Source: an uncultured Colwellia sp. (lineage in GTDB: Bacteria > Pseudomonadota > Gammaproteobacteria > Enterobacterales > Alteromonadaceae). From it: a stretch of DNA of 64,000 nucleotides. A program made the position numbers and the translations under genes. Where the stretch lies: contig CAJXYE010000005.1 in the NCBI GenBank assembly GCA_913063325.1, positions 1 through 64,000 of the forward strand, written 5' to 3'. The notes beneath the pieces are model-generated. The model was given only the letters and a program-made list of their open reading frames with translations. It was not told where the DNA came from and did no database searches. Below are positions 42,100 through 58,743 of the stretch, piece by piece. Each line of letters opens with the position of its first letter. The first letter of the stretch is position 1.

Positions 42100-43062
42100 A
42101 TGTCACTTTCTTGTGTGTACAGTCGAGCTAGAATTGGTCTTGAATCCCCCCTCGTTAGCGTTGAAGTTCACCTTGCCAATGGCTTACCCGCATTCAATAT
42201 TGTCGGTTTACCAGAAGCGTCAGTAAAAGAATCCAAGGATAGGGTACGTAGCGCAATAATCAATTGTGGTTATGAGTTTCCGGCTAAACGAATTACCGTT
42301 AATCTGGCACCAGCTGATTTACCTAAGGAAGGCGGCCGCTTTGATTTACCTATTGCGGTGGGAATTCTCGCCGCGTCTGAACAACTGCCTCCCGTTGATT
42401 TGAGCCAATATGAATTTGCAGGAGAGCTAGCTCTTTCCGGTGAACTACGAGCCATTGTTGGAGAAATACCTGTTGCCATGGCAAGTAGCCAAAGCAAGCG
42501 GACTTTAATTATTCCCATTCAAAATACCGAACAGGCTAGCTGGGTAAAACAAGCGAAAATTCATGCTATCAGTCACTTAACGCAATTATTCCCTCATTTT
42601 GCTGGGCAACAGGTTCTACCCTTAGTTACTGAACAAATTATGGCAGAAGAGTTGACTGAGTCAGAACAATCGTTAGATATGAGCGATGTTATGGGGCAAC
42701 CCTTGGCTAAGCGAGCTTTGGAAATTGCTGCCAGTGGTGGTCATAACTTACTTTTTATCGGCCCACCGGGGACGGGAAAAACTATGTTAGCTAGCCGCTT
42801 AGCGGGTATTTTACCGCCTATGACAGAGGACGAGGCATTACAAGTAGCAGCTATTCAATCAATTAGTCATCAAGGCATTACACGTAAATCTTGGTTTACT
42901 CGGCCTTTTCGAGCCCCGCACCATACTGCATCCTCGGCTGCTTTGGTGGGTGGTGGCAGCCAGCCCAAGCCTGGTGAAATCACGTTGGCGCACAACGGTG
43001 TATTGTTTTTAGATGAATTACCTGAGTTTGAACGAAAAGTCTTTCAGGAGGGTACAGTTTGA
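42100..43062 (+). pseudogene. yifB: yifB/comM (Mg-chelatase-like AAA+ helicase), 3' part lost
   Basis: The first ~314 codons are intact YifB/Com[52 protein letters not shown], the ATPase start [63 protein letters not shown], and the Walker B segment [17 protein letters not shown]. Homology stops at about 43041; the frame runs six more codons into a TGA. Normal YifB has about 500 residues, so the sensor region and C-terminal domain are missing. ComM is a branch-migration helicase needed for efficient chromosomal transformation; this copy should be inactive. The cut is the left junction of the mobile region. Confidence 0.92.
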
Positions 43063-43072
43063 AATGTGAAAT
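43056..43072 (+). repeat. Left terminal inverted repeat
   Basis: Sequence AGTTTGAAATGTGAAAT, beginning about 15 bases after yifB homology ends. Its reverse complement differs at one base from 50149-50165. A further partial copy (ACATTTCA) follows at about 43081, so the left end carries nested recombinase-site-like repeats. Confidence 0.75.
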
Positions 43073-43134
43073 ATGAATGTACATTTCAGATGAAGATGCT
43101 ATTATAACCACATGGATTGAATTACAGGTTATGT

Positions 43135-44388
43135 ATGTTGATGAAAAAGGTGATCCTTCGAAATTTTAATCATGAATCTCGCACTATTGAACAACTCGAT
43201 GTGTTTGTCCATGATGACGACTCTCTTATTCTCATTCCTAGTCTTTATTGCCTATTTTTACTATATCACCTGAGTCATTATAAGCAAATTGATATAAAAC
43301 TAAAAAATGGGACAAATCAAACGCAACTCGTAAAAGCAGATATTAGCGAAGGGACCGCAGAGCAATATATATCGCATTTAGATCGCTTCTTACGTTATTT
43401 ACATAAAAGCGATCAGGAAAATCCTGATCGAAACTGGTTGATGCTAAATCATAATTTACCAGCAGACATTATTAATCATTACATTAATGATATTTTTATC
43501 GAGCAAGAAAAAAGTAGCAGCACTGCGGCAGCGATGTGTGTTTCTGCGCTTACTTCTTATTACAACTATCTTCTCAAAGTAAATTTAACCAAATCATATA
43601 GATCGCTTAGCATCTGGGCAGGTAATAAAACGATTGCACAAAAAAATACGAAACGACGCGAAGGTGTTAAATACTTACCACAGAGCACGAGAAATGCATT
43701 GCTTCGACAGTGTACTAATTTACGAGACAAAATAATTCTGCGTTGCGGGGCAGAGCTTGGCACGCGAACAAAAGAAGTTCCGGGTTTTTATTTAAAGGAC
43801 TTTGAATATGGACAAAAAACGCGCAAAGGCTTGCTCACCTTATTTGACGAAATGGATGACAACCCCGATAAAACCGTATTTGAATACTATTTACCGGGTA
43901 TAAATTCCAAAGGAAAGCCGGGGAAAGGTGGTATGTCCCGTAAGCTGTACATTGAAGCGGAACTGCTTCAAGCAATGCAAGAATACTATCAGCAAGAACG
44001 TCCAAATTCTGAGCATAATACCTTCTTCTTAAAAGTGGATAAACGAGGTTATGGCGAGCCGATCCCTAATAATCAAGCCTCTAGCATCTTTAAAAAAATG
44101 AAAGATAAGTTGTTGCTGATGCAAGAGCAAGATAATTCGCTTACTTATAAAATTCACGAAGACCATGTTTTTCACATCATGCGCCATAGTTTCGGCACTG
44201 ATAAGTTTTATCAGATCGCCAACGATGTCGGATGTGCAATAGATGCAATAACGGCAAGTAGCACAGTGATGATCCAGATAGCGGAACTCTTGGGGCATTC
44301 ATTAGAAGGTAAAGATAAAGGCTTTAAAGTAACGCGGAGCTACATACGTAGCACAAGAGAGAAAATGACCATGGAGGGACAGAAGTAA
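43135..44388 (+). CDS. Tyrosine recombinase (first of the quartet)
   Basis: A 417-aa site-specific recombinase. The N-terminal SAM-like core-binding region is at about 60-160 (EGTAEQYISHLDRFLRYLHKSD). The catalytic domain is complete: R211 in ELGTRTKEVPGF, a Lys in the GMSRKLYIE beta hairpin, H347 and R350 in FHIMRHSFGT, H388 in ELLGHSLEG, and the nucleophile Y403 in KVTRSYIR. Start set at ATG 43135 (AGG six bases upstream), not the TTG at 43117. Its stop overlaps the next start (TAATG). Comparable to TnpA of Tn554 and the GmtY-type recombinase of Gamma-Mobile-Trio islands; exact family not verified. Confidence 0.88.
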   Translation: MLMKKVILRNFNHESRTIEQLDVFVHDDDSLILIPSLYCLFLLYHLSHYKQIDIKLKNGTNQTQLVKADISEGTAEQYISHLDRFLRYLHKSDQENPDRNWLMLNHNLPADIINHYINDIFIEQEKSSSTAAAMCVSALTSYYNYLLKVNLTKSYRSLSIWAGNKTIAQKNTKRREGVKYLPQSTRNALLRQCTNLRDKIILRCGAELGTRTKEVPGFYLKDFEYGQKTRKGLLTLFDEMDDNPDKTVFEYYLPGINSKGKPGKGGMSRKLYIEAELLQAMQEYYQQERPNSEHNTFFLKVDKRGYGEPIPNNQASSIFKKMKDKLLLMQEQDNSLTYKIHEDHVFHIMRHSFGTDKFYQIANDVGCAIDAITASSTVMIQIAELLGHSLEGKDKGFKVTRSYIRSTREKMTMEGQK

Positions 44389-46655
44389 TGAACGATGATA
44401 CATTAAGCACAGAGGATGCCGTAATGGATGATATGTTAGCTGAAGAGCAGCAATTGCAAGCGAGCTTCTTACGCTCTAGACCCGTTACCGCTATTGCCCT
44501 CACCCCGATCCGTATTATTCTGCCCGAGGGACCCGGCATTCGTCAATCAGATAATGTATTTGAGTGTAGCAACGAACATGTCGATGCCAAATTGCTGTTT
44601 AGTTGCTTGGCCGTTGCATTACATGATGTCCATACCCATCCAAAACTGTATGCGCCCTCAAAATTGAGAGGTATCTCACTGGCGGTACAGGAGTTTATTC
44701 CTTGGTTAAATACCCACATCATTAACAGCAGGAACCGTGCGACTATCGTTAAGGATTTTGAGACATTTAGGGTGAATGAGTGCAAGGTTCAACCGCAAAG
44801 CTCATTAGCCGCACACTTACTCGATGCTCTTAGGGTTGGCTTGGCGGTTAAGGGGTTCAAGGATAAACGCTCTCAATTAGAAGTGGCCTATCTCCGCAAC
44901 ATAATCGATAAGACCAAGCTCTCTAAAAAATCAGTTGCTAAGCAAACCACGCTGACAAACTATTTTGGCCAGATACAGTGGGTTCGCGAGCATATGGATA
45001 GTGAATTATTCAATCGTGTTGCCAGCCCGAAAGCACTCATGTCCTCCTTTTCTATTACCGTTGCGACCTTAATGCTCGAAGCGCAACGACTGCTCGATGA
45101 ATTAGAATCATATTGTATCAATCATCAGATAACAACGGACATGTTTACCATTGAGCGCACCAATAAAAAAGAAAGTGATCATAAAAGAGCATTATTGCGG
45201 CACTTAGTTAATATTTTCTGTAAAGACTACAATGATGATTCATCAGATTTCATTAAAGTCATGTTGTTTGATATCTCTAGCCCTTACGCTTATGAAGAGA
45301 ATTTAAGGCGCTTGAAAAATGGAAAGCAGATAGCCAAAGACGCTTTTCGTAAGCAATACAATACCGTCAACCAAGATGTTGGCTTATTTAGTTACGACAC
45401 CGTATTGGATGTAGTGAAACGTGCCGAGCAAAAGCAACTGGGGGCAACTGATATTCCCCCAATGCCAGTTAGCTCGTTGGAGCAAATGTGTTTCATTTGG
45501 CTGATGGCGTGGCAAGCGGTGCAACCCACCGATATTGCTAAGCTTAAAAATAGCGACTTTCGTTTCATGGAACGCAACGATAAATCAATAACGCATGTGG
45601 GTTGCGAATACTACAAAAGCCGCGCCCATGACTACAAAGAAACGTCTTTGTTAGCGGTTAGCGATGTTGAGGGGAAAGCGGTCTTACGCTATACACAACG
45701 AAAAATGTTAGCTAATGGTGACAGCACCGCACTGGTGAGTCTGTCAAACCTATGCAACATACAAATATGTGGATCTACTACTTTTATTAAGCAAGTGTTC
45801 GGTTTGGCGACCTTCCCGGTTATTCACACTAAAATCCTGCTCGAACTGGGCAAGCGTGAAGCTACCTCGGTATTGCTCGACAGCATAACCACTATGATGT
45901 CGCACGGCATAACATGCAGTTTTTGGAAAACATGCACAGAGTCAGAGGACCTCTCTGTAGAAGCATTTCGCGCTCAGGTTAACAACCCCCTTCCCCTTGG
46001 CTGGTTTGGCCTTGAAGCCATTAAAAACTCGGCTGTTCACTCGCGTTCGGATAAATATAGGATTGGTCATCTGGTCAATTATAATTCACACACGAATGAA
46101 ACCCAGCGGGATAGTTACAATACTGCCGAGAATGAAGAATGGCTCGATAACTGTGGCCGGGTGACCCGTTCGGTGATGCATGATTTAAGCATCAATGTAT
46201 TAAGCCCTTCAAGTGACTTGGTCTTCAACGGTGATTTTACCCAAGCATTGGAAGTCATTAATGATAAAAAAAATGATGTGTTGTCACGGTTAAAGCTAGT
46301 TACAGACACTACGGGTAAAGCGAATGAATTGGGCATGATAGACAAGCATGTACCCGTCGAAGATGATCTCCCCGATACCCTTTATTTACTTGATACGCCC
46401 GAAACCTATGTGCAGATGCAGCATTACCTTGACCAAGCGCTAAAGCACTACCAGCAAATACTCAAAAGTAATCCGGTATTTCTGGAGTACACTGTATTAC
46501 CGACCTGTGAGTGGATCGAGGTGGTGTTCAATGCGTCTAATCTCAAACAAACGAATGAAAAAGGATTCAGTCAAAAAACCGTTGAAGCGGGGCTGGTACT
46601 GTACAAGGAATATCAAGCCTATTTACTCCCCTTGTTTACTGCCCAATTGAGTTAA
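44388..46655 (+). CDS. Large tyrosine-recombinase-like protein with degraded catalytic residues (second of the quartet)
   Basis: A 755-aa protein. Residues 360-600 follow the tyrosine recombinase catalytic fold, but key residues are altered. The box I region reads WQAVQPTDIAKLKNSDF with Gln where Arg is expected. The HxxR region reads GLEAIKNSAVHS with Lys for Arg and no His. The last motif, NYNSHTNETQRDSYNTAE, keeps a His (about 568) and a Tyr (about 577). It may be a structural partner in a synaptic complex rather than an active strand-exchanger. The N-terminal 350 residues are not recognised. Translationally coupled to both neighbours. Confidence 0.7.
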   Translation: MNDDTLSTEDAVMDDMLAEEQQLQASFLRSRPVTAIALTPIRIILPEGPGIRQSDNVFECSNEHVDAKLLFSCLAVALHDVHTHPKLYAPSKLRGISLAVQEFIPWLNTHIINSRNRATIVKDFETFRVNECKVQPQSSLAAHLLDALRVGLAVKGFKDKRSQLEVAYLRNIIDKTKLSKKSVAKQTTLTNYFGQIQWVREHMDSELFNRVASPKALMSSFSITVATLMLEAQRLLDELESYCINHQITTDMFTIERTNKKESDHKRALLRHLVNIFCKDYNDDSSDFIKVMLFDISSPYAYEENLRRLKNGKQIAKDAFRKQYNTVNQDVGLFSYDTVLDVVKRAEQKQLGATDIPPMPVSSLEQMCFIWLMAWQAVQPTDIAKLKNSDFRFMERNDKSITHVGCEYYKSRAHDYKETSLLAVSDVEGKAVLRYTQRKMLANGDSTALVSLSNLCNIQICGSTTFIKQVFGLATFPVIHTKILLELGKREATSVLLDSITTMMSHGITCSFWKTCTESEDLSVEAFRAQVNNPLPLGWFGLEAIKNSAVHSRSDKYRIGHLVNYNSHTNETQRDSYNTAENEEWLDNCGRVTRSVMHDLSINVLSPSSDLVFNGDFTQALEVINDKKNDVLSRLKLVTDTTGKANELGMIDKHVPVEDDLPDTLYLLDTPETYVQMQHYLDQALKHYQQILKSNPVFLEYTVLPTCEWIEVVFNASNLKQTNEKGFSQKTVEAGLVLYKEYQAYLLPLFTAQLS

Positions 46656-46670
46656 AAAAAGGATAGCGAT

Positions 46671-49436
46671 ATGCGTTTAATTAAAGCCTCACCACTGTTA
46701 TCAAGCCGTAACGGATTATTACAACACTTTAACGATACTCTTGCACTGCTTACGCCCATTGCAGGCACTGAGTTTGCATCAACGAGTTGGCAGTTTAAAT
46801 ATCAAACATCAGTCAACACAATTGATATTACCTTGGATTTTTCACTGTTTGACTGTCCACATCTTAAATTTGTTGAGACAATGGATCTAACATTTGACAC
46901 CGAGCAATACCAAATTAGCACTGTCGAGTTAGCAAAAATCCTGTTTTTGTCGCAAGCTTCCTCCAGTAGTGCTGGTATTTACATGTTAGAAATTAAAATG
47001 CTAACACGCTTGTTTGCTTTTTTGACTGAGCAAGGCTTAACGTGTGTGAACGCCAATGATTATCAAGCACTGTTTCAGTATTTAATGACCATGGATGTGA
47101 GCGCGTCAGGGGTCAAGCCACGTTTTTCTAGTCTGGGCTACGGCTCTGCTTTTCCAATTAAAGTTAATACACTCAATAGCACGTTACAGCTCTATGGCAT
47201 TGAAGGGGTGCTCGCCCACATATCAGAAACTTATATCAAAAAAGCACAAAAGTCAGCGGTGGAAGTGGTGACCGGACTGACGTTAGCTGATTACATGGTG
47301 GGTGGTTCATTTAACTTTTTAACCTTATCGGTAGGCCGTCACTATATCGATCATTGCGGCAGTTATTTTGAGCAGCATTATCCGCTAGCTAGCGCTTTTC
47401 ATACATGTTTGCGAGAGCTGCCTGAAATTATCCAGCATGCATTTGAACAACAAATTGGCAGCCGCTATAACTATGCAACTGGACTACTAAAGCATATCAA
47501 TGCCGTATTGTCAGGTCGGGATATACTAATTGAACCGTTCTTGATCAAATCCGGCAAACGAAAAGATAAGTTTGAACTATCAAAGGACAGGTGTGAGTTA
47601 ATTCAGCGTTTGACGCAAGAATTTTTCTGGCAACAATATCAGCAAACTTACGAGCAGACTGTCTTATTGCGTGAGCAGGCTTTGGCTTTACTCGCCAAGC
47701 AGCTTCGGTTGCCAGAGCGCTTTGATAGTTTTGAATTCTTACGTGCCATGTTGTTGACGCAGTTGACCGATATCCCGTTGCCACGAGATCCAGAGTCGTT
47801 ATTACGACAATATTGTGCCACCTTAAAAGATAAGCGAGAGATCACCTTAACGCAGTTTTTAGATGCCTGTGCTGTGGTTAATAAAGAGCTTAATAAATTA
47901 GCGCCACAAAAAAAACAAAGCTTGGCTCAGCTATTGGCAAAGGCCGATATACCCTATGCCAGTGATGGTTATGCAATCCGGGAATTTGTCAATAACGTTG
48001 AAGCCGCTGGAGGCACCATGATGCTTGCATTGACGGGGTGGCGTGCCAGCGAATATGGTTTTCCTCTGACTGCGATAAAAATTACTGACAACCAAGATAT
48101 CTTAGATAGCACTTACACCCCATTTCGGTTTATGCTGAACTGGGTTGTGCCAAAGACCAACGGTAAAACCAAATTAGATCGCGAAATTACTCTGTCGACC
48201 TACTTGCTTGCCAATCAGCTCAATAGCTTGCTTGCAGCCAGTACCACGGCTCCCTGCCTGTATTCTTCGAAAATGAAAAAAAATGCCCATGATTCATCAT
48301 CGTTGTTTTCTTCTCGCGTACGGCGGATGTGGCGACACTTTGTGCAGCACTACACCCCGTTTAGCGAATTACGGCAGTTAGATGCCTTAAAGGAAAAAGA
48401 GGTGCTGAGTGAGGGGGAGCGGCAGGATTTCACCCTACTGTCGCAAAAATACCCCGACAATGCTTACACTGCGGATTTTCGTCACACCCTGCAAAAAGTG
48501 ACCGATGAATTACCACTGCTACTGGCAACGGGGCAGTTAGGTAATAACAAGAATACTTCACCCGCTTACAGGCTGTTTGGTTTCATCAAGGGCTCATTGT
48601 CAGCCGATGAAATGACCGTCTGGCAGCAGCACCTTGACCCTTTGTTGCAACAAAAATTAAAAGAGCTAACCATAGAAAAACCAGCAGATTTGGCAAGGAA
48701 TTTAGTAACAACTTGTACTGCAAACGTCCTAGATAATTGTGTTTACCCGACACCCCATGGCTTCCGGCATATCTGGGCTGAAGCTGTGCTCAGACGCTAT
48801 TCGGGTGATGTCGGTTGGTTCATTCGCTCACACTTTAAACATCTCGATGAACGTTTTTTTATGCGTTATCTGAGACTTAAAAACTTTAAAGATATTCATG
48901 ATATCGCCAAGCGAACTGCCTTAAGTAGCATTGTCAGAATGCATTTACTGACACTTCGTGATGAACACCGGGCATACACTGGTAAATTTGATGTTTTAAT
49001 GCGGCGAGTAGGTCAAGCAACTAAGGTAATATCTATTGAGGAATTGCCTGAAGTAGTCGATCAGTTTGTTGCCACTGAAGTCATCGATCTAAAGGCGAAT
49101 TCTTGGTGTAATTGCATTTTGAGACGTACCACAGAGAAACAAGCCAAGTGTTCCATCGACGGCGAGCCGCAACGACAAAATGCTGACCCATCATTATGTC
49201 TAGGCTGCATCAATGGGAATATCGAAGAAGGTCATGTTGTGGGGATCATGCTACAAGTTGAAAATGATGTGAAAATATTGAAAAATCACGAATTACCTCA
49301 AATTTTCAAGAGTAAATCAAAATCAACAGTAATTGAAGCTAGAAAGCAGTTTTTACAATTAAAACGCAACACCGGCAGTAATAAATACGATAACCACATC
49401 AAGTATTTTGATGATGCACTTGTAATGGGAGGTTAA
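46671..49436 (+). CDS. Very large tyrosine recombinase with C-terminal zinc-ribbon-like domain (third of the quartet)
   Basis: A 921-aa protein with AAGGA ahead of its ATG. The recombinase domain lies at about 430-740: R458 in ALTGWRASEYGF, H696/R699 in PTPHGFRHIWAEA, a His near 721 or 724 in RSHFKHLDERFF, and Y733 in FMRYLRLK as the likely nucleophile. A cysteine cluster follows (WCNCILRR, KCSIDG, SLCLGCINGN at 812-850), probably one zinc. The N-terminal 400 residues have no recognised domain. It resembles TnpB of Tn554 and the VPA1269/GmtZ-type integrases in layout, as far as I can recall, but this was not searched. Confidence 0.78.
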   Translation: MRLIKASPLLSSRNGLLQHFNDTLALLTPIAGTEFASTSWQFKYQTSVNTIDITLDFSLFDCPHLKFVETMDLTFDTEQYQISTVELAKILFLSQASSSSAGIYMLEIKMLTRLFAFLTEQGLTCVNANDYQALFQYLMTMDVSASGVKPRFSSLGYGSAFPIKVNTLNSTLQLYGIEGVLAHISETYIKKAQKSAVEVVTGLTLADYMVGGSFNFLTLSVGRHYIDHCGSYFEQHYPLASAFHTCLRELPEIIQHAFEQQIGSRYNYATGLLKHINAVLSGRDILIEPFLIKSGKRKDKFELSKDRCELIQRLTQEFFWQQYQQTYEQTVLLREQALALLAKQLRLPERFDSFEFLRAMLLTQLTDIPLPRDPESLLRQYCATLKDKREITLTQFLDACAVVNKELNKLAPQKKQSLAQLLAKADIPYASDGYAIREFVNNVEAAGGTMMLALTGWRASEYGFPLTAIKITDNQDILDSTYTPFRFMLNWVVPKTNGKTKLDREITLSTYLLANQLNSLLAASTTAPCLYSSKMKKNAHDSSSLFSSRVRRMWRHFVQHYTPFSELRQLDALKEKEVLSEGERQDFTLLSQKYPDNAYTADFRHTLQKVTDELPLLLATGQLGNNKNTSPAYRLFGFIKGSLSADEMTVWQQHLDPLLQQKLKELTIEKPADLARNLVTTCTANVLDNCVYPTPHGFRHIWAEAVLRRYSGDVGWFIRSHFKHLDERFFMRYLRLKNFKDIHDIAKRTALSSIVRMHLLTLRDEHRAYTGKFDVLMRRVGQATKVISIEELPEVVDQFVATEVIDLKANSWCNCILRRTTEKQAKCSIDGEPQRQNADPSLCLGCINGNIEEGHVVGIMLQVENDVKILKNHELPQIFKSKSKSTVIEARKQFLQLKRNTGSNKYDNHIKYFDDALVMGG

Positions 49437-49438
49437 TG

Positions 49439-49978
49439 ATGGAATTTAACGACTTGCTCGCGCAATCAGTCGCACAAGACAAAACTAAGCCAGAGAACGA
49501 ACTACCCGAGTGGGTATCTGCTGACAACGCCTCGCTTGCGGCTTATGAGGCAATTAACAGTATAAAAAAAGAGAAGTTTGCCTATATCAGTAAGCACAAG
49601 ACCGCAACGAAATTTCGTGTGGCAAAAACTTTTCAAGTACAGAAAAAAGAAGTAGCCGACAAGATAGGAGCAACAACCCAAGCGATATTTTATGCCAGCA
49701 GTTATTCAGAGGATCTTCTAACTTTCCTTGAAGGTAAGGAAGATACCGACGGTAAAAGGACGGGTGGTATCAATGGTGAGCTAATGAAGCGCAAAGACGA
49801 TCGCATAGCAAAACCCCGAACTGGTTTAGCATCTAAATCTAAGTCTGAAATATACTCTTCTGCACAAGCGGCAAATAAACGTATTGAAGAGCTAGAAGCG
49901 CAAAATGCGGAAGAGCAATTATCACTGGCAATTACAAAGTTACCGCTTAATGTGCGAGTTAAACTTAAGCTGACATAA
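49439..49978 (+). CDS. Small accessory protein of the recombinase quartet (TnpC-like)
   Basis: A 179-aa protein. A probable HTH at about 60-90 (FQVQKKEVADKIGATTQAIFYASSYSEDLLTFLE) is followed by a basic linker and a C-terminal coiled coil (EIYSSAQAANKRIEELEAQNAEEQ). Tn554 TnpC, a small accessory factor, has the same place and design. GGGAGG lies six bases before ATG 49439; a second ATG at 49436 is too close. It may set recombination direction or bind the inverted repeats; that is inference. Confidence 0.65.
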   Translation: MEFNDLLAQSVAQDKTKPENELPEWVSADNASLAAYEAINSIKKEKFAYISKHKTATKFRVAKTFQVQKKEVADKIGATTQAIFYASSYSEDLLTFLEGKEDTDGKRTGGINGELMKRKDDRIAKPRTGLASKSKSEIYSSAQAANKRIEELEAQNAEEQLSLAITKLPLNVRVKLKLT

Positions 49979-50079
49979 GAGAATAGAAAAAAGGTAGTGG
50001 CAAGTAAAAGTTAGTTCTGCAAGAGTACTTAGCCAGCGCGTTAATTGTAGTAGTTCAAACTCAACCAGACACTTTGCCT

Positions 50080-50106
50080 CCATCAGGTTTTAAACTAACC
50101 TGATGG
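50080..50106. other. Hairpin after the quartet
   Basis: Perfect 10-bp stem (CCATCAGGTT and AACCTGATGG) with a 7-base loop, about 100 bases after the accessory gene and 43 bases inside the right inverted repeat. No U-run. It could stop transcription weakly or be part of the element end. Confidence 0.5.
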
Positions 50107-50148
50107 ACGCAAAATCCACCATAAATTTATTTATCAAACAAGTCCAAC

Positions 50149-50165
50149 ATTTCACATTACAAACT
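50149..50165 (-). repeat. Right terminal inverted repeat
   Basis: Sequence ATTTCACATTACAAACT, which matches the reverse complement of the left repeat at 16 of 17 positions. It overlaps the stop codon and last two sense codons of the minus-strand gene that follows, so that gene's end is shaped by the element boundary. Confidence 0.75.
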
Positions 50166-50909
50166 AAGACTAATTTCATTTTTGATAGCATCAATGTTTA
50201 GAACTATTTCTTTCTCTATCATTTCAGGTACATAACCTTCTTGGTGCATCTCAAAGAGAACATCCAATCTAGAATGATTGATTTTAAAGAAATGTGTGGG
50301 GTATTTACATTTAATATTCGTCAGTATTGACTCATAATTATCATTATAATCAATAGCATTAATATGTCGGTTTACATCAAAATGTTGATATGTTTTTTCA
50401 GCACGTTTTAGTATTGCAAATGGGCTACGCTGAAGTTGTATTGAAATTGTCGATATAGCAAAACCTTCTTTTAACATTATTGTAAGATTTTTTTCTTCTT
50501 GAAGACCCCATGTTTTTTCCGCATTTACTTGCTTGTCCGCTTTTAATGTCGCCCATAGTATCTTATACATCTCAGTATAATTTGTTGGGTAACGATCTTT
50601 GAAAAGACTATTTTTTGAAGTCATCTTATAGCGACCATCATTTATAGTGATGTACCAATCCAGTCCATTTACATTGATGAACAAACTATTTTTATGATGA
50701 TAGAAGTCATCTTTATCCTTAATGTTTTTTAAACCTAAAAACTCAAATTGCGAGTGGAATTGATTTCTAAGTTGAGGAAAAAACATTTCGCGCATGCCTA
50801 CAACTAGGACTTGTTTGATAAAATCCTCATCCGACTTATAAAGTCCATCTTTATGAGTCGACAGCAAGAAATCATCAATATCGTCTAATTCAATGGTAAT
50901 ATTTTTCAT
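50157..50909 (-). CDS. Protein of unknown function next to the recombinase element
   Basis: About 250 aa from ATG 50909 (MKNITIELDDIDDFLLSTH). The frame is open upstream to a TTG at 50966, but those 19 codons lack support. Predicted mostly helical; the N-terminal segment resembles ribbon-helix-helix-like sequence (IDDFLLSTHKDGLYKSDEDFIKQVLVVGMREMFFPQ). A middle part (WGLQEEKNLTIMLKEGFAISTISIQLQRSPFAILKRAEK) looks like an HTH/SANT-type helix trio. The last residues SL and the stop come from the right inverted repeat, so the original C-terminus may have been longer. No family recognised. Confidence 0.5.
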   Translation of the reverse strand: MKNITIELDDIDDFLLSTHKDGLYKSDEDFIKQVLVVGMREMFFPQLRNQFHSQFEFLGLKNIKDKDDFYHHKNSLFINVNGLDWYITINDGRYKMTSKNSLFKDRYPTNYTEMYKILWATLKADKQVNAEKTWGLQEEKNLTIMLKEGFAISTISIQLQRSPFAILKRAEKTYQHFDVNRHINAIDYNDNYESILTNIKCKYPTHFFKINHSRLDVLFEMHQEGYVPEMIEKEIVLNIDAIKNEISLSL

Positions 50910-51312
50910 TTTCTGCCCCGATAAAGCTGATTTATCAAAAGGATTGAAATAGAAAAGGTGGGGCAATGGGTAGATAAGAATAATATAAAATGGCAGAAAT
51001 AGTATTTGGACTTGAACATGATTTTGTAACCTTACAAGAATGTTTAAATGCTCTTTTACCGTTTAGCAAAAGAGTTAATAAAGTTCATAATTTTTCTTTT
51101 AAGTCTGAAAAATTATGCTTGTTTGGTCACAAAGAGACTATACAAAAAGTTTCGAAAAGATGCAAATATGCTTCGATATGCATTAATATTACACTATATT
51201 TATCAAAAAACACTGATAAAAACAGGAGAAGGGATAGTTTCAGCATACGTTTGACTTAGTTTTAGACTTAATTTAGAGAATTAACTATATTTAAAATTAA
51301 GCAAGGAAAGTA
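50910..51312. other. Gap with weak small frames
   Basis: About 400 bases between two minus-strand genes. Two overlapping plus-strand frames (50990-51259 and 51048-51254) lack ribosome sites and recognisable content. Probably the promoter region of the gene ending at 50157 plus the tail of the nuclease gene's transcript. Confidence 0.3.
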
Positions 51313-52047
51313 TTACTCACAAACCACTCCATTATTGTCACGATCATTCATGAAAATGTATGCTGCATGTCCTCGTCGCACCGGTGCTATTCCATGAGCA
51401 CGAGCTTCCGAACATGTAATGCGACCATTTTTGTTGTCATCGTACATATTGAGTGCACCCGGTGAGCTTGGTGTTGGTAAATCCACTATACTTTGATCTG
51501 CTTTAGGAAAGAAAATCATTTCGACGCTTTCACAAGAAGCTAACACTGACTTTAAGGCATCTGCTTCCGCTTGATTGGCACTTAAAGAATATTTTACCTT
51601 AATCTCGACGATTCGATTTGCAAACCAGCATTTGTTCTTTGCAGGCATCCATTCTGCAGCATCTAAGCCACACTTTCCTGTAGAGCTACATCGGTTCACC
51701 TTAGGCGCTGCCAGAGTGAGATTAAGCATATCAGTTGCAAACTGTACCCTTGTCTCTGCCGATGCAGAGCATAGCCCACTATCATGTCCCTCTGAAGCAG
51801 CTACGATATGTTCTATATCTGTTTCTTTGTCGGATGCAAAGTATCGTCCCGTATATGGACCATAAACATGTCCCCCCATCTGTACAACAATAGCGTCTTC
51901 GACACTCTGTGGGTAAGGGTATTGCTTTTTTTTATCATATGGAGAGCATCTATTTTCTGGCTCGACAATCAGTCCTCGCCAAGTATCTTGAGCTGACGAC
52001 GTAAAAATCGTAAATAAGCAGAAACAAATAATTGTAAAACGACTCAT
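51313..52047 (-). CDS. Exported HNH/DUF1524-type nuclease with an excalibur-like tail
   Basis: About 244 aa with a Sec signal (MSRFTIICFCLFTIFTSSAQ). The nuclease core has DIEHIVAASEGHDSG (D77, H80), NLTLAAPKVNRCSSTGKCGLDAAEW and KNKCWFANR, a His-Asn-His-like metal finger arrangement seen in DUF1524/GmrSD-type and related secreted endonucleases. The C-terminal 45 residues (MYDDNKNGRITCSEARAHG, then IFMNDRDNNGVVCE) match excalibur calcium-binding repeats. Start at ATG 52047 with GGAAG upstream. Secretion argues against a classical intracellular restriction role; nutrient scavenging or surface defence against DNA is possible. Confidence 0.75.
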   Translation of the reverse strand: MSRFTIICFCLFTIFTSSAQDTWRGLIVEPENRCSPYDKKKQYPYPQSVEDAIVVQMGGHVYGPYTGRYFASDKETDIEHIVAASEGHDSGLCSASAETRVQFATDMLNLTLAAPKVNRCSSTGKCGLDAAEWMPAKNKCWFANRIVEIKVKYSLSANQAEADALKSVLASCESVEMIFFPKADQSIVDLPTPSSPGALNMYDDNKNGRITCSEARAHGIAPVRRGHAAYIFMNDRDNNGVVCE

Positions 52048-52125
52048 GATAACTTCCAAAATTACTAGTAGTTGATGACTGAGAGCTGAATGGGTAGCCT
52101 AAACATCAAGTTCAATTGTTAGCTA

Positions 52126-52482
52126 TTAAGCGATAGCATATTTAATATCAAATTCAGTAACCACAGTCTTTGGCTGAATTTTTTTGGCATTTTTCGTTAA
52201 TTCAACAATACCGTATTTTTCCATTGTTTTAAGTGTGCGACTGACATTACTAGTTTGTCGGCCACTCAATCGAGCGAGCTCCTCAATTGATTCTGGATGA
52301 CACTCATTTATCAGTTTCAATAATCGCATGTTGTTATCACTTAATACTTCACCAAGTGACTTCAGAGAGTTAAACCATATTTTCGGTTCACCACATTTTG
52401 GTATTATCTTTCCTGACGCAATTTCAAGGACTCTACGTTGAAATTGCTCTCTAGGCATAATGCCAATTTTTAATTTACTCAT
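52126..52482 (-). CDS. Winged-helix DNA-binding protein (HVO_A0114-like, antitoxin type)
   Basis: A 118-aa protein. The winged helix is clear: KIWFNSLKSLGEVLSDNNMRLLKLINECHPESIEELARLSGRQTSNVSRTLKTMEKYGIVEL. This matches the HVO_A0114/MarR-like group that often serves as antitoxin or autoregulator in small toxin-antitoxin operons. It is the last gene of the minus-strand helicase operon; its ATG overlaps the stop of the 75-aa gene. No toxin gene of known type follows. Confidence 0.65.
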   Translation of the reverse strand: MSKLKIGIMPREQFQRRVLEIASGKIIPKCGEPKIWFNSLKSLGEVLSDNNMRLLKLINECHPESIEELARLSGRQTSNVSRTLKTMEKYGIVELTKNAKKIQPKTVVTEFDIKYAIA

Positions 52483-52729: not shown

Positions 52730-54916
52730 TTAATTCAAATCGTTCAAGTTCTGCCCTGATAATAATTCACTTAGAAATGAATTTCGTTTATTAGCATTAC
52801 TTTCATATTGAGTGATTTTGATGAAATCACTTTCTTTACCAACAATATGAACCTCTGTTTCAGCCCTTGTTATGGCTGTATACAACCAACTTCTATCAAC
52901 AATTCTACCACTTTTAAGACTGATTATTATTCGTGGAAACTGTGAGCCTTGAGCTTTATGTAGTGATATTGCATAGCCTAGTTTAATGGAGCTAAACAAA
53001 TCTAAATCAAGTTGAACTTCATCACTAGTATCAAGTGTCACTACACCAAATTTATCATCTACATGGTCAGTCGATGTGATAACACCAAGGGAGCCATTTT
53101 GCACACCTATCTCATAGTTATTTTTGGTGAACAAAACAGGATCGCCGAGCTTGATGCGTACAAACTGCATCTCGCCTTCATGTTTAATTGTGAGCATCTG
53201 TCCATCAGGGTTATTCTTTGCTTGGGCAAGACTATTAATTTCATCTATACCCCCAAACATTGTTTTGTAAGTAGCACCAATAACACGGCTATTTTTAGGT
53301 GACTGTGAATATAGTTCAACGCATTTAGCTGATATTTCCTCTTCAGGCGTTTCATGAAATGTTATGTTCTTAAATGATAAGTTATTAGGAACGATCCCAT
53401 CACATATTTGTGCGCTGTACTCAGGTATACCTGTGCTAACGTCTTGTCGTTTAACGATATCTAATGTTGTGTTCATTATGGTGCCGCTACTTACAACGTC
53501 TGCTAACACCTTACCTGGACCAATCGGAGGTAGCTGATTAGGATCACCCACAAATAATATCCGAACATTAGGGTGTATACGCGTGACAATTCTGTACATC
53601 GTAGGTATATCAACCATTGATGCTTCATCGATAACGACGATATGCTTACCATCATCATTAATCTCTTCCTTTCGTAAGAATGCCGCAATAGTGCATGTAG
53701 CAAAGCCGATAGATTCATGCATTCTCATAGCAGCCCTGCCTGATAACGCTATAGCATGTATTGTATAACCAGCGAAATGCATAGCCCTCAGTGCAGTTCT
53801 GAGCACGGTTGTTTTCCCCGTACCAGCACCACCAGTAATGCATGCTATTTTAAACGCTAATGCATTAACAACAGCTTCTTGCTGCTTGCCTACCAATTCA
53901 TAAGGCAATTCATCAATCGCTTGTCTTGAGCTTTTAGTAAATAATTCATCGAAGGTGTCACCAAAGCTTGCTAGCTTCTTAAATCGCTTAGCAACAACCC
54001 CCTCCATGATCAATGTAGCTGATTGATGATATGTTTCATGTTCAGGGTGAATAATATACTGGCTTTTACTAAATCCAACTTTAAAAGCTTTTTTGGTAAG
54101 TTCCATACAACCCAATAAACGCCTTAATATAGGCTTTAACTCGTTTTGGCTTGCGAATGTATCACCATTACTTAGAGATGTACGTAAAGCCTCTTCTATT
54201 GCCGCTGACAGTCTTCTCTCGTCATCGTCATTAACAATATTAAAATGAGATTTAGCTAATTCGCTAGCAGCTTTAAACGACATACCAAATGACATCAGTT
54301 TAAAAGGGTCTCGCTGGATCTCTTGGATGGATTGATCCCCATGAAATTTTAACAATGATTGCTGTACGTTTGTAGGGATCTGCTTTTTAGACATCCAATT
54401 GGCATATTTAAGATTGGAATACTTTTTAAATCCTTCATACAAAGCTTTTACAGAAGTATCGCTAAGCATTTTGCTTAACGATATTTTGTCTTCAGCATAA
54501 TTGCGGCTGAGCATTGTATATATTTCTTTATCATAGTATTCCCAAAGCTCTCTAGCTTTAACAGTACCAATACCTTTAAATGCTTTTTCGTATGCTATGA
54601 ACTTTATAAATTGCTCACCTGTTTCAGGAAGCGTGCATACCGCGAATATAGGGTCTTCATAGGTGAGTTGTTTATATGTGTAACCGTTATTATCGAAATC
54701 AGAAACTTTATATTTGTCTTTAACCGTCCAGTGCTGCCCTATAGCAGGCTCAACAGGAAGGTTGTTTTTCTTTGACATGATTGAGATTAAGGTTTGCGCA
54801 CTAAAAACCTTGTTGCTTTTATCTAATGGTGCTCCCATAAAGATGACATAATTGGATGTATTGCAAGTTACGCTGGTAACCCTAAACCTTGACTCCTTAA
54901 CTTCTGAATCGCTCAT
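52730..54916 (-). CDS. RecD2-like superfamily 1B DNA helicase
   Basis: A 728-aa protein. The N-terminal OB-like domain is at 1-100. A helix-hairpin-helix region at about 105-160 starts KGIGTVKARELWEYY, and a second helical region follows. The motor has Walker A CITGGAGTGKTT (360-370), Walker B VVIDEASMVD (427-436) and motif III GDPNQLPPIG (457-466). The UvrD_C_2 end has GYAISLHKAQGSQFPRIIIS and YTAITRAETEVHIVG. RecD2 unwinds 5' to 3'. This is not chromosomal recD, since no recB or recC is near. It overlaps the upstream gene by four bases and is followed by two small regulators, which suggests a dedicated defence or element-maintenance system. Confidence 0.88.
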   Translation of the reverse strand: MSDSEVKESRFRVTSVTCNTSNYVIFMGAPLDKSNKVFSAQTLISIMSKKNNLPVEPAIGQHWTVKDKYKVSDFDNNGYTYKQLTYEDPIFAVCTLPETGEQFIKFIAYEKAFKGIGTVKARELWEYYDKEIYTMLSRNYAEDKISLSKMLSDTSVKALYEGFKKYSNLKYANWMSKKQIPTNVQQSLLKFHGDQSIQEIQRDPFKLMSFGMSFKAASELAKSHFNIVNDDDERRLSAAIEEALRTSLSNGDTFASQNELKPILRRLLGCMELTKKAFKVGFSKSQYIIHPEHETYHQSATLIMEGVVAKRFKKLASFGDTFDELFTKSSRQAIDELPYELVGKQQEAVVNALAFKIACITGGAGTGKTTVLRTALRAMHFAGYTIHAIALSGRAAMRMHESIGFATCTIAAFLRKEEINDDGKHIVVIDEASMVDIPTMYRIVTRIHPNVRILFVGDPNQLPPIGPGKVLADVVSSGTIMNTTLDIVKRQDVSTGIPEYSAQICDGIVPNNLSFKNITFHETPEEEISAKCVELYSQSPKNSRVIGATYKTMFGGIDEINSLAQAKNNPDGQMLTIKHEGEMQFVRIKLGDPVLFTKNNYEIGVQNGSLGVITSTDHVDDKFGVVTLDTSDEVQLDLDLFSSIKLGYAISLHKAQGSQFPRIIISLKSGRIVDRSWLYTAITRAETEVHIVGKESDFIKITQYESNANKRNSFLSELLSGQNLNDLN

Positions 54917-55350
54917 CTACGCATCATTCCTAATTCACTAATGACTTCACCTAGTTCCTTGTACTTTTCTAATTTAATATTAAGCTCACGTATTGCAGCT
55001 TTAAGTTCAATGTTCTCTTTCTCGAGCTTTAATAACTCTCTTTTGTTCAATGCGTTCCCAATAGCTGATTGGTCGAACTCTTTAGGTTGTTTCTCTTTTT
55101 CAATACGTTCTTCAGTTTTTTTAGGTAAAACCCCACGTTTTCTAAGACCATTCTCTAGAGTTTCTAGTGCAGGGATTATAAGATCATTTTGTGTCAGAGC
55201 AGATTTACCGATGTCCGCACCAAGAGCAATTTCCGTACGATTAAGTTTTCCACGGAAGACTATTTGACTAAAAAAGGCATCATCTTGAGTTACTACCCAA
55301 CTCATGAATTTGTTAAAAGTATCTATCTTTGCTTGCTCTGCACTACCCAT
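54913..55350 (-). CDS. TnpC/VPA1267-like HTH and coiled-coil protein
   Basis: A 145-aa protein. Residues 35-80 read as an HTH-like unit (GKLNRTEIALGADIGKSALTQNDLIIPALETLENGLRKRGVLP), then a Lys/Glu-rich linker and a long coiled coil (LLKLEKENIELKAAIRELNIKLEKYKEL). This is the layout of small accessory proteins of tyrosine-recombinase elements, including what is annotated as VPA1267 family, and parallels the fourth protein of the quartet at 49439. Here it leads a helicase operon instead. AGAGGA precedes the ATG; its stop overlaps the helicase start. Confidence 0.6.
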   Translation of the reverse strand: MGSAEQAKIDTFNKFMSWVVTQDDAFFSQIVFRGKLNRTEIALGADIGKSALTQNDLIIPALETLENGLRKRGVLPKKTEERIEKEKQPKEFDQSAIGNALNKRELLKLEKENIELKAAIRELNIKLEKYKELGEVISELGMMRR

Positions 55351-55782: not shown

Positions 55783-56730
55783 ATGAACTATAACTATTCC
55801 GATATATCGTCCACGCAATTCGAACACCTTGTCATTCACTTATGTGACGAACTATTTGGAATGGGTTCAGAGGCATTTTCTGAGGGGCCCGACGGAGGTC
55901 GAGATTCAAGATTTCAAGGGGAGGCTCAAATGTACCCCTCGACATCACGGCCTTGGTGTGGATTGACAGTAATCCAAGCAAAGCACACCACTAGCTATAA
56001 CAGCAAATTCAGCGACCCAGATTTTTTCAGTCTAGAATCAAAAAGCGCAACGATTACAGAAGAAGTGAAAAAGATTAAAAAGCTTATCACTGAAGACGGG
56101 CTGAAGAATTACATTATATTCTCAAATAGAAAGTTATCTGCAAATGCTAATGAGAAAATTAAAAATTATCTGTCGAGTGAAACTGGCTTAGATCAAGAAA
56201 ACATTGGATTGATAGGCATTGAAAGAATGGAGCTTTTGTTTAAAAGGTTCCCTCATATAACCAATATGGTCGATTTAAATCCGTACGATACACCTCTAAA
56301 CATAAGCCCTGACGACTTGGCTGAAGTCATTGTGTCAATTAAAGATGTACTGCCTACTATTAAGAAAAAAGATATTGAACCTAGTCTAATAAGAACCGAT
56401 TTCACAAAGAAAAATGAGTTGAACAAGCTAACTCCAAGCTATTCAAATGTAATACTTAAAAAAATCGGTGATTTTTGCGAAATTGAAGATTTTCTTTCAA
56501 TGCCTGACAATGATGATTACCAGCAAAAGTACATCGAGTCAGCAGAAGAGCTACATGCTAAAATTTGCATTTATAAACAAGACCGCCATTCATTCGATGA
56601 AGTTATTGAAAAGACTATCGAGCTAATCATAGACCGAGACAATGACTGTAAAAGAAATAAAGCACTAACCCGTACCATGGTCTATTACATGTACTATAAA
56701 TGTGATATTGGTGAAAACTATGTTGCTTAA
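55783..56730 (+). CDS. ABC-3C system protein with Mrr-like nuclease domain
   Basis: A 315-aa protein. The N-terminal PD-(D/E)XK fold is of Mrr type: E14 in STQFEHLVIHLCDELF, D41 in EGPDGGRDSRFQG, and Q65-x-K67 in VIQAKHTTSY, where Gln replaces Glu as in Mrr. The C-terminal half (from about 190, LTPSYSNVILKKIGDFCEIEDFL) is helical and of the kind fused to ABC-three-component systems. The next two genes overlap or adjoin it and complete the set. Likely the DNA-cutting effector of an anti-phage or anti-plasmid system; activity is inferred. Confidence 0.78.
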   Translation: MNYNYSDISSTQFEHLVIHLCDELFGMGSEAFSEGPDGGRDSRFQGEAQMYPSTSRPWCGLTVIQAKHTTSYNSKFSDPDFFSLESKSATITEEVKKIKKLITEDGLKNYIIFSNRKLSANANEKIKNYLSSETGLDQENIGLIGIERMELLFKRFPHITNMVDLNPYDTPLNISPDDLAEVIVSIKDVLPTIKKKDIEPSLIRTDFTKKNELNKLTPSYSNVILKKIGDFCEIEDFLSMPDNDDYQQKYIESAEELHAKICIYKQDRHSFDEVIEKTIELIIDRDNDCKRNKALTRTMVYYMYYKCDIGENYVA

Positions 56731-56959
56731 ACCAAATAAAAACGCAAACCCCGACCTGACTGTAATGGCTGTTTCATCTTTTCTCCTCAAGCGCATCAAG
56801 AAAAATAGACTTGAAACCATTACCGAGCTAAAGCTTGCGCTTTTAGATAATGATAAAAATTCAACGTCTTTAATTGAACCCGCATTAGAGTTCCTATTTC
56901 TTTTAGGGCTCATTGAATACCACACTAAAAATGATTTAATTGAGTACACTGGCCCATGA
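56720..56959 (+). CDS. ABC-3C middle component
   Basis: A 79-aa protein starting MLLKPNKNANPDLTVMAVSSFLLKRIKK. It is a small helical, winged-helix-like protein in the middle position of a three-gene set; the start LLKPNK and the ending FLFLLGLIEYHTKNDLIEY are typical of short ABC-3C middle components. ATG 56720 follows GGTGAAA and overlaps the nuclease stop; its own TGA overlaps the ATPase ATG by four bases. The frame is open a little further upstream, to 56702. Which numbered middle-component family it belongs to was not determined. Confidence 0.7.
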   Translation: MLLKPNKNANPDLTVMAVSSFLLKRIKKNRLETITELKLALLDNDKNSTSLIEPALEFLFLLGLIEYHTKNDLIEYTGP

Positions 56960-58743
56960 AAATTTCTAAAATTTACTCCAACAAACCAAATGTTTTTGAG
57001 CCAATAGAATTCAATGAGGGTTTCAATATAATAATTGGTGAAATTAGACTTCCTGAGAATAAGGACAGAGATTCGCACAACCTTGGGAAAAGTAAACTGG
57101 CTGAACTTATTGACTTTGGTTTTCTAAAACAAAGACATAAAAACACATTTCTCTTTAAGCATTTCGACCGATTTTCTGAATTCGTTTTTTACTTTGAATT
57201 TAAATTGAATGACGGCACATATATTACTGTCCGCAGGTCTGTGGAAAAGAACACGCAAATAAACTTCAAACGTCACACTGCAAGCTTGCAAGATTTCAGC
57301 TCTTTGCCAGATTCAGACTGGGATTATCAAAAATTATTAATTGAAAAAGCCAAGCTATTAATGGATAGCTTCTTTAATCTTACTTCGATATCCCCATGGA
57401 ACTATCGAATGACAGCAAGCTATGCCCTTCGTAATCAAGATGATTTCAATGAAATATTTCAACTAAAGAAATTCGGGCCAAGGCACATAACTTGGAAGCC
57501 ATATGTTGGTCATCTGTTGGGGTTTAACGCTGAAAATCTAACAGAGAATTACGAATTAAGAACGTTAATAGATAAGATTTCAGAAAAACTAGACGAGCTA
57601 CAAAAAGAAATTGGAGTCTATCAGGGCGACGAGGAAGAGATGCTTCAAGATGCATTAGCCACCAAGCTTCAATCTGCAACAATGCTACAGTCTCAGTTAG
57701 ATGAATTTAATTTTGATGAATCTGACGCTAAAACCGTGGAGGAGCTTTCAGAGGGGCTTGATAGCGAGATTGAAGAACTTAACCGTATTCGATATTACCT
57801 AAGCGCGAACATCAAAAAACTCCGACGAGCACAATCAAAGAAACCCACCACCTTTGATGTCAGTAAAACAGAGAAGCTATTTGAAGAAGCTGGCATTCTA
57901 CTTGGCGACCAAATTAAAAAGTCTTACAGTGAATTACTTGAGTTTAGCCGTAAGATAACAGTCGAAAGAACTGGCTTCGTCAAACAACAAATGGGTGATT
58001 TAGAGAAACAGCTTTTAGATACATCTTCCCGACTTACTGAGCTTAACGCTCAAAAATCACAAAAAGTATCATTCTTAACGAGCACTAGTACATTTGAAAA
58101 ATACAAAGAAGTATCAAATCAATTATTGCTAATTAATACAGAGATTAATGCAATTAGAAGAAAGTTAGAAATCAGTGAGCAAATCAAAAGTAAAGAAGGT
58201 GAATTTCGAGACCTAAGCAAAACAAAAGGCGATGTTATCGAAAAAATAAGAGTTAATAGAGACTCTGTAATGAAGTCTGAAACATCTATATACAAAACTA
58301 TCAAAGATAACTTTTCTCAGTTTGTTAGGCAGGTTTTGGACAAAGAAGGGAGAATTTCAACAGAGCAAAATAAGGAAGGGAACCTTGCGTATCATGCAGG
58401 TTTTGTTGATGGTGATTTCAACTATACAAGTGAATCCGATGGCTGTAGTTACAAGAAAATATTATGCATGGGGTATGATTTAGCTGTAAATATTGCCTAT
58501 CAAAATCAGGGCTTTGTGCGTTTTATTTATCATGACGGTGGACTTGAAACTCTCGATTTTAGGAAGAAAATTGAATTTTTAAAATATGCCCGCACCATCC
58601 CTGAACTTCATGGCACTCAGTATATTTTAACTCTCATTGACTCAGACTTGCCTGAGGGAATAGAGTTCACAGAGGAAGAAATTGCACTAACATTACATGA
58701 TGACGGAAATGATGGTCTTCTTTTCAAAATGCCTTCTTGGTAA
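56956..58743 (+). CDS. ABC-3C ATPase (SMC/RecN-like, DUF2326 type)
   Basis: A 595-aa protein. The N-terminal half-ATPase has FNIIIGEIRLPENKDRDSHN and Walker A NLGKSKLAELIDF (K45). Long coiled coils occupy about 180-460 (for example QKEIGVYQGDEEEMLQDALATKLQ and later helices). The C-terminal half-ATPase has the Walker B-like strand FVRFIYHDGGLETLD and YILTLIDSDLP. This is the DUF2326-type ATPase of ABC-three-component conflict systems, proposed in comparative studies to sense nucleic acid and license a coupled effector. The effector here would be the Mrr-like nuclease two genes upstream. No terminator is visible after it. Confidence 0.85.
   Translation: MKISKIYSNKPNVFEPIEFNEGFNIIIGEIRLPENKDRDSHNLGKSKLAELIDFGFLKQRHKNTFLFKHFDRFSEFVFYFEFKLNDGTYITVRRSVEKNTQINFKRHTASLQDFSSLPDSDWDYQKLLIEKAKLLMDSFFNLTSISPWNYRMTASYALRNQDDFNEIFQLKKFGPRHITWKPYVGHLLGFNAENLTENYELRTLIDKISEKLDELQKEIGVYQGDEEEMLQDALATKLQSATMLQSQLDEFNFDESDAKTVEELSEGLDSEIEELNRIRYYLSANIKKLRRAQSKKPTTFDVSKTEKLFEEAGILLGDQIKKSYSELLEFSRKITVERTGFVKQQMGDLEKQLLDTSSRLTELNAQKSQKVSFLTSTSTFEKYKEVSNQLLLINTEINAIRRKLEISEQIKSKEGEFRDLSKTKGDVIEKIRVNRDSVMKSETSIYKTIKDNFSQFVRQVLDKEGRISTEQNKEGNLAYHAGFVDGDFNYTSESDGCSYKKILCMGYDLAVNIAYQNQGFVRFIYHDGGLETLDFRKKIEFLKYARTIPELHGTQYILTLIDSDLPEGIEFTEEEIALTLHDDGNDGLLFKMPSW

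Follow-up and report, generated by a model that had tools for sequence, protein, structure and literature searches.

A 29.5-kb island with a four-gene tyrosine-recombinase module in the comM gene of an uncultured Colwellia

The island in comM and its recombinase module

In a stretch of 64,000 nucleotides from an uncultured Colwellia sp. (assembly GCA_913063325.1, contig CAJXYE010000005.1, positions 1 to 64,000 of the forward strand; hereafter the window), the gene comM (yifB) aligns with its relatives up to position 43043 and then breaks off just upstream of four coupled open reading frames (ORFs) of 417, 755, 921 and 180 aa that are read from one strand (Table 1). The 3' half of comM, recognisable by its Mg_chelatase_C domain at contig positions 72837-73112, lies on the same contig and strand 29.5 kb downstream. 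Removal in silico of contig positions 43044-72572 yields an intact comM ORF of 509 codons, and the rejoined protein equals the ComM of its closest relative in length (509 aa) and agrees with it in 480 of 509 residues. The 29,529 bp delimited in this way, the right end of which lies beyond the 64-kb window, are a mobile island that brings a set of four recombination genes of its own and splits comM at about codon 315. A preliminary description of this locus had correctly recognised the break in comM and the four coupled genes; comM is continuous across the insertion site at 29 of 29 aligned loci of relatives, a figure taken from the best-scoring loci and hence biased to intact genes. Of 61 genomes searched for comM, 58 gave a match, which in some is split into two pieces. 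At the left attachment site (attL) comM is kept up to GTCTT, and at the right one (attR) it resumes at TTAGAC; the position of the junction is ambiguous by 2 bp (TT), and there is no longer common core, which is what a foreign origin of the 6 bp at attR would predict. The four-gene module forms the left end of the island and is followed by cargo and a short AT-rich last stretch, a layout also described for the GInt elements discussed below; the GC content is 42.0% in the four-gene core, 36.1 and 33.8% in the cargo and 32.0% in the last stretch. In the draft genome of the host (126 contigs, 87.6% complete) the module is present as one copy.

Genes 1 and 3 code for proteins with the conserved motif of tyrosine recombinases. 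In the gene 1 product (417 aa from the ATG at 43135, or 423 aa from an alternative TTG at 43117), the catalytic residues assigned by motif are R211, H347, R350, H388 and Y403, four of which are invariant in 14 of 14 rows while H347 is nearly so; a profile search of PDB sequences gave one match, under another name. The gene 3 product has no Pfam family below an E-value of 0.4, reaches XerA at E 0.18 in a profile search of PDB sequences, and aligns weakly to the HxxR..H..Y block of an IntB protein from the SE elements introduced below. Its R458, H696, R699, H724 and Y733 are nevertheless shared by all 37 proteins aligned, and so are four cysteines near the C-terminus (815, 827, 843 and 846; C-x11-C-x15-C-x2-C) that possibly form a metal site.

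The large protein encoded by gene 2, counted as a third recombinase in the preliminary description, has no match in Pfam or NCBIfam and none to a recombinase by sequence. K410, R412, K546, N564 and Y577 are invariant in 37 of 37 proteins, H568 nearly so, and the protein lacks a recognisable R-H-R at the expected places. Cre, Flpe and topoisomerase I chains are among the top PDB matches of its structure model (predicted local distance difference test score, pLDDT, 81.6), at E-values of 0.9 or worse; the first PDB match is unrelated (E 0.62), and none is significant. A degenerate recombinase fold is plausible. A PADLOC match of this protein to PtuA (E 0.0045) was taken as chance. For gene 4, the model (pLDDT 91.2) is helical, with a C-terminal helix of 33 residues, and lacks a significant PDB match. 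As read from these motifs and models, the module would comprise two catalytic tyrosine recombinases, a large degenerate protein and a small helical auxiliary; the strong hairpin that follows gene 4 appears terminator-like.

Table 1. Features of the comM locus and of the part of the island that lies in the window
Feature	Position	Strand	Basis or remark
comM/yifB 5' part, codons 1-314 + 2 bases	42100-43043	+	3' part resumes at contig 72573
Island in comM, window portion	43044-64000		Continues to contig 72572; continuous comM in relatives, restored ORF
Left terminal region, incl. 17-bp repeat copy 43056-43072	43044-43072	+	comM alignment, end comparison
Gene 1, IntA-like tyrosine recombinase, 417 aa	43135-44388	+	PF00589 over cut-off, motif
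Gene 2, large Tfp-like protein, 755 aa	44388-46655	+	Alignment, structure model
Gene 3, IntB-like large tyrosine recombinase, 921 aa	46671-49436	+	Invariant motif
Gene 4, Srap/GinD-like small helical protein, 180 aa	49436-49978	+	Structure model
Hairpin with 17-nt arms (94% complementarity) and a 7-nt spacer	50073-50113		Between gene 4 and cargo
Right copy of 17-bp repeat, internal	50149-50165	-	Overlaps stop codon of next ORF
269-aa protein, no family over cut-off	50157-50966	-	Pfam
Excalibur + GmrSD_C protein, nuclease-like	51313-52059	-	Pfam
Winged-helix regulator, HVO_A0114/MarR-like	52126-52482	-	Pfam
RecD2-like helicase, 728 aa	52730-54916	-	Pfam/PADLOC
145-aa gene without matches, overlaps RecD2-like helicase gene	54913-55350	-	ORF, scan
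315-aa CTD12-of-ABC-3C protein, weak Mrr_cat	55783-56730	+	Pfam/PADLOC
595-aa DUF2326 protein, PADLOC PDC-M68B	56956-58743	+	Pfam/PADLOC
PAS/histidine kinase/receiver protein, first of chemotaxis and cyclic di-GMP cluster	60311-63079	+	Pfam

The preliminary description had bounded the element by a 17-bp inverted repeat and thereby set its size at 7.1 kb. The repeat itself exists: AGTTTGAAATGTGAAAT stands at 43056-43072 on the plus strand, and its inverse at 50149-50165 deviates from it by one mismatch (16/17). We reject it as the element end on account of the 3' half of comM downstream, the restored comM and the lack of an equivalent in relatives. When the first 91 bp of the element were set against the 500 bp that follow gene 4, none of 400 Markov-resampled pairs came within one mismatch; over the whole window, with up to three mismatches, two or more matches were also obtained in 19 of 100 shuffles. 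The former measure gave at least three mismatches in all 43 rows (35 distinct loci) of relatives. A wider scan at other distances returned pairs with 0-1 mismatches at L065/L104, where a second dinB explains them, and at L057/L073, L059/L082 and L070, where they are without explanation (L numbers denote loci, G numbers genomes). In relatives, two seeming inverted repeats turned out to reflect the homology of the broken target, dgt or dinB, to its second copy. The right repeat copy of the window contains the stop codon of the minus-strand cargo ORF next to it, and the adjoining AGTCTTAG is also present in the comM target. In our reading, the 17-bp repeat is an internal site. At the true ends, an inverted match of 8/9 lies 16 nt from either comM junction; in register, 42 of 5000 resamples gave as good a match, and 119 of 1000 did so once shifts were allowed. 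A position weight matrix built from the left ends of eight relatives inserted in dinB did not single out the left end of the window (about 0.2). An inverted near-copy (15/17) of the left end at about 51735-51751, within a cargo gene, is probably due to chance.

Relatives, their targets and the cargo

Of 196 genomes from the family, 17 (own genome counted) contain relatives of the IntB-like protein, 13 of them near full length; such relatives were also found at 43 loci in the genome_contigs set, mostly from marine Gammaproteobacteria, with one contig labelled Dokdonia. Including a Shewanella plasmid and two loci present only in the G set, this amounts to 46 distinct other loci. The order and strand of the quartet genes are kept at these loci. 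Among the 56 listed rows, in which duplicates are counted, gene 1 and gene 2 are each present in 54 and gene 4 in 48; tblastn missed the latter in eight rows, four of which do have an ORF of 182-185 aa that overlaps the IntB gene at its end. In 369 genomes of the class, the Tfp profile matched the window's own genome only, and the IntA profile added one weak match; a scan of the genome_contigs set with one sequence gave no match. Loci L157-L160 form a subgroup in which each of the four genes is akin to that of the window type, with sizes of 374-382/698-786/668-710/194-205 aa.

The interrupted genes were counted over 41 loci, with L079, L080, L085, L101 and L103 (no full IntA) left out. They are dinB in 12 cases, dgt in eight and comM in one (L097, at residue 381 and thus at a site different from that of the window); 20 loci have no assigned target. 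Inspected by eye, some of these 20 start within what we take to be hslR-, flavodoxin- and trmL-like genes. Ten of the 12 dinB insertions follow directly on the codons for HxDMDC[FY], and two are in the opposite direction. A second dgt, about 23% identical at the protein level to the broken one, stands directly after gene 4 at five of the eight dgt loci (L062, L063, L072, L074, L081), and a second complete dinB lies downstream at three of the 12 dinB loci (L090, L093, L104), as counted over the 0.4-11 kb that are visible at these 12. Only L093 has both element ends in view, so that the second dinB can be placed there within the element, after which the host dinB continues from residue 14. Upstream of the dinB start, a CTGT-N8-ACAG box, presumably a LexA box, is found at nine of the ten forward dinB loci (L088, L090, L092, L093, L095, L104, L106, L108, L110), with the quartet downstream of it; it is absent at L089. 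The operon located in dinB may be read from an SOS promoter. In the open literature, we found nothing on such targets save for one paper, which does not include comM.

The gene comM is found in two pieces at other positions in eight related genomes (G009, G012, G018, G032, G037, G039, G046, G049), with splits at about residues 62-69, 87-107, 206-220 and 281-286. No quartet match was found in seven of these eight broken-comM regions, some of which are only partly covered; one such region, L165, has an integrase that resembles gene 1 of groups b and c defined below.

The cargo of the window's island begins with genes that can in part be assigned to defence. The ABC-3C-like pair (55783-58743) likely serves phage defence, and the RecD2-like helicase and the GmrSD_C protein are likely further parts of it. 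The view that the module heads a mobile unit with likely defence genes as cargo gains support from the Pfam and PADLOC matches. The chemotaxis and cyclic di-GMP cluster extends to about contig position 71285 and comprises a hybrid kinase, EAL, CheW, MCP and GGDEF-EAL proteins. Neither a further recombinase nor a comM-like protein that might replace the broken one was detected among the 14 ORFs of the rest of the island scanned with Pfam (smaller ORFs were not scanned).

Comparison with described elements

The closest described systems, neither of which had been named in the preliminary description, are the strand-biased circularizing integrative elements (SEs; PMC9345347, PMC10214605) and the GInts of the Tn6571 family (PMC5385486). 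SEs possess the four genes intA-tfp-intB-srap and end in imperfect inverted repeats of 13-19 bp; their circles contain only the left 6 bp of the flank, and no empty site arises (PMC10214605). Circle formation stops upon knock-out of intA, intB or srap, tfp was not deletable, and complementation succeeded only for srap (PMC10214605). GInts depend on all four of their genes, ginABCD (PMC5385486), and are located in Escherichia coli hotspots with defence cargo (PMC10121019). In both types, cargo lies between gene 4 and the right end, and chosen targets are used (PMC10214605, PMC5385486).

As SE reference we used pAQU1, the SE of which is named in PMC10214605, and assigned the quartet beside blaGMA-1 ourselves. 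Compared as single sequences, the window and pAQU1 are weakly linked through gene 1 only, and the IntB profile gave no match to pAQU1. The pAQU1 Tfp matched 26 of 394 genomes of the order at 27 places; Tfp and Srap are the proteins with which the SE authors searched (PMC10214605). Profiles were built from 16 of these 27 places and four weak IntB matches, with off-size or cut-off genes excluded, and fall into the SE-like groups a and b (6 and 11 loci), group c (four loci) and group d, the window type (49-54 rows per gene, ten loci twice). With hhalign, each of the four proteins of group a matches its counterpart in group b (97.9-100%), and the same holds between c and d (97.9-99.8%). Across these pairs, gene 1 gives 99.1 (b1-d1), 95.1 (a1-d1), 97.1 (b1-c1) and 2.6% (a1-c1), and gene 3 gives 96.6 (b3-c3), 86.0 (a3-c3), 82.0 (b3-d3) and 1.6% (a3-d3), while genes 2 and 4 stay at or below 3.8% throughout. 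The protein sizes (aa, genes 1 to 4) are 488-545/614-628/657-683/154-175 in group a, 398-483/562-596/633-709/145-181 in group b and 395-427/674-784/873-945/159-212 in group d. A tblastn search of plasmids with gene 2 of group c gave no match. By profile, the window and its 46 relatives look like a third group of quartets, next to those of SE and GInt. Frames of 902-929 aa at L127, L131, L136 and L137 match the SE Tfp and SE-type gene 2, not the window-type gene 2; SE-like elements may have further size classes. At L128, there is a weak match to the window-type gene 3.

The following traits are shared with SEs: catalytic, non-catalytic, catalytic and small genes in this order, overlapping or close to each other, at one end of the element; R-H-R-Y by motif in both the IntA- and the IntB-like protein; cargo; targets within coding genes; and Gammaproteobacteria as hosts. 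Some members also carry a second copy of the broken gene, and the additional dgt and dinB of the window's relatives resemble in this respect SE-6283, which sits in bcp and carries bcp (PMC9345347). Set apart from this are the SE proteins Tfp and Srap, which have no detectable relation to window proteins 2 and 4, and the sizes of the Tfp-like (755 aa) and IntB-like (921 aa) proteins as opposed to about 560-630 and 630-710 aa in SEs.

For GInts, the ssb-yjcB stretch is matched in 5375 of 5426 E. coli genomes, in 4945 of them at one place that covers at least 80%; of three other E. coli genomes, two have a quartet after ssb and one shows the far side of an island. Our examples are L172, L173, L175, L176 and L178, to which plasmid relatives were added; the resulting profiles have 5-6 rows, with which a remote link could be missed. 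Like the window's island, GInts have a four-gene operon at the 5' end, cargo on one side that includes defence genes (here avs4 and restriction genes) and site-specific insertion, and gene 1 of the window matches the GInt gene 1 profile at 97.2%. They differ in genes 2-4, which are unrelated by profile, and in their position after ssb (L172, L173, L175, L178). Since a motif scan did not cleanly separate catalytic from degenerate GInt members, gene order was not used to exclude this family.

Other described systems share some traits. Gamma-Mobile-Trio islands likewise have recombinase genes at the head of defence cargo (PMC12715929), from which the preliminary description had already distinguished this element. 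The distinction is supported by the GmtY model NF040693, which matched nothing in the genome at E <= 0.001, and by the NCBIfam matches of the four proteins, which include no Gmt model (the presence of GmtX and GmtZ models in the library was not confirmed). This comparison is based on the NCBIfam model and on a passage of PMC12715929. Tn554 (TnpA, TnpB, TnpC) resembles the module in having one ordinary and one large recombinase, a small auxiliary and a 6-bp footprint (PMC10214605), whereas it lacks a Tfp counterpart such as gene 2. RIT elements also combine several tyrosine recombinases in one operon, but their archetype has three of 315-410 aa, all with the catalytic tyrosine (PMC10214605, Table 1), and the window module does not have three catalytic recombinases of ordinary size. 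Both were set apart by description, not by sequence. AbaR-type islands likewise target comM but use DDE-type tni genes.

Proposed movement of the island and its meaning

We favour, with a probability of roughly 0.8, the view that the locus harbours an integrative 29.5-kb element inserted in comM, the left-end module of which moves it in an SE-like manner and represents a third group of quartets. By analogy, the island probably moves as SEs do. IntA and IntB, both catalytic, would assemble with the Tfp-like core-binding protein and the Srap-like auxiliary on the imperfectly inverted ends, and exchange of one strand would join the ends of the element. Replication would subsequently free a double-stranded circle with 6 bp of left flank, which would recombine into a chosen site within a conserved gene, and the cargo that fills the space from gene 4 to the right end would move along. 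From the described elements we infer this copy-out route, the roles of proteins 2 and 4 in it, and any present activity of the island; the extent and target of the island, the gene order, the conserved catalytic motifs and the grouping by profile are seen in the sequences themselves.

Several points weigh against this view. A circle, an empty site in the population and transposition were not observed, and the mechanism is deduced by analogy. This analogy rests on the layout and protein 1, for SEs also on protein 3, because proteins 2 and 4 have no profile link: hhalign gave 1.6 (a2-d2), 0.6 (b2-d2), 1.1 (a4-d4) and 3.8% (b4-d4) in the comparison with SEs, and 0.1, 0.7 and 16.3% for genes 2, 3 and 4 against the 5-6-row profiles of GInts. 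The terminal inverted repeats of the island are weak and only suggestive. At related loci, frames are broken (L071, L107) or a full IntA is lacking (L079, L080, L085, L101, L103). Moreover, the member list of the SE survey (PMC10214605) may already include the window-type group.

Kinship with SEs could be closer than the profiles reveal. That the module belongs to an SE family member too diverged for them is possible though doubtful; the gene order, the similar hosts, the matching gene 1, the partly matching gene 3 and the match of group c gene 3 to groups a and b are in its favour, and so are the width and blurred limits of the SE family, as the Tfp-like frames of 902-929 aa also found by the pAQU1 Tfp illustrate. 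Yet Tfp and Srap remain unmatched even though all four proteins match within each of the pairs a-b and c-d, and the protein sizes differ from those of group a. Assignment to the GInts, for which the four genes, one-sided and in part defensive cargo, site-specific insertion and gene 1 would speak, is highly improbable in view of the unmatched genes 2, 3 and 4, short as the profiles are.

The main structural rival assumes a minimal quartet element of 7.1 kb (43056-50165) that is nested, 12 bp from the left end, in an older comM island, which has lost its own recombinase. A cargo-free SE, SE-AmaTe101, has been described (PMC10214605), and the locally non-random repeat, the higher GC content of the core and the recurrence of the sequence beside the right repeat copy in the comM target fit such an arrangement. 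We nevertheless consider it quite improbable: a cargo gene has its stop codon within the right repeat copy, no equivalent repeat was found in the 35 distinct relatives, the ORFs scanned elsewhere in the island include no recombinase, and published SEs and GInts keep their cargo where the island has it (PMC10214605, PMC5385486). The comM junction lies 91 bp before the IntA gene, with about 79-93 bp in six of nine dinB loci; a start at 43056 would give 79 bp, so that this spacing does not decide. Finally, the island might be a dead remnant, an old insertion with recombinases that no longer act. Its weak terminal repeats and its single copy in a draft genome are compatible with this, but all four frames are open and the catalytic motif residues are in place, which makes such a fate unlikely.

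Islands mobilised by four-protein tyrosine-recombinase systems carry resistance and defence genes, and little is understood of how they move. If true, a third group that shares this layout would show which parts the mechanism keeps, namely two catalytic proteins, a degenerate one and a small auxiliary, and it would add new target sites. We tentatively suggest that the window and its relatives represent a third, as yet unnamed, four-protein copy-out family parallel to SE and GInt, which often breaks genes of DNA maintenance (dinB, dgt, comM) and in part brings along a substitute. Its movement could possibly be coupled to DNA damage, because the operon located in dinB lies just downstream of the LexA-type box and the dinB start. 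With the dinB and dgt cases, it can be tested whether these elements repair the damage that they cause and whether their movement follows the SOS response.

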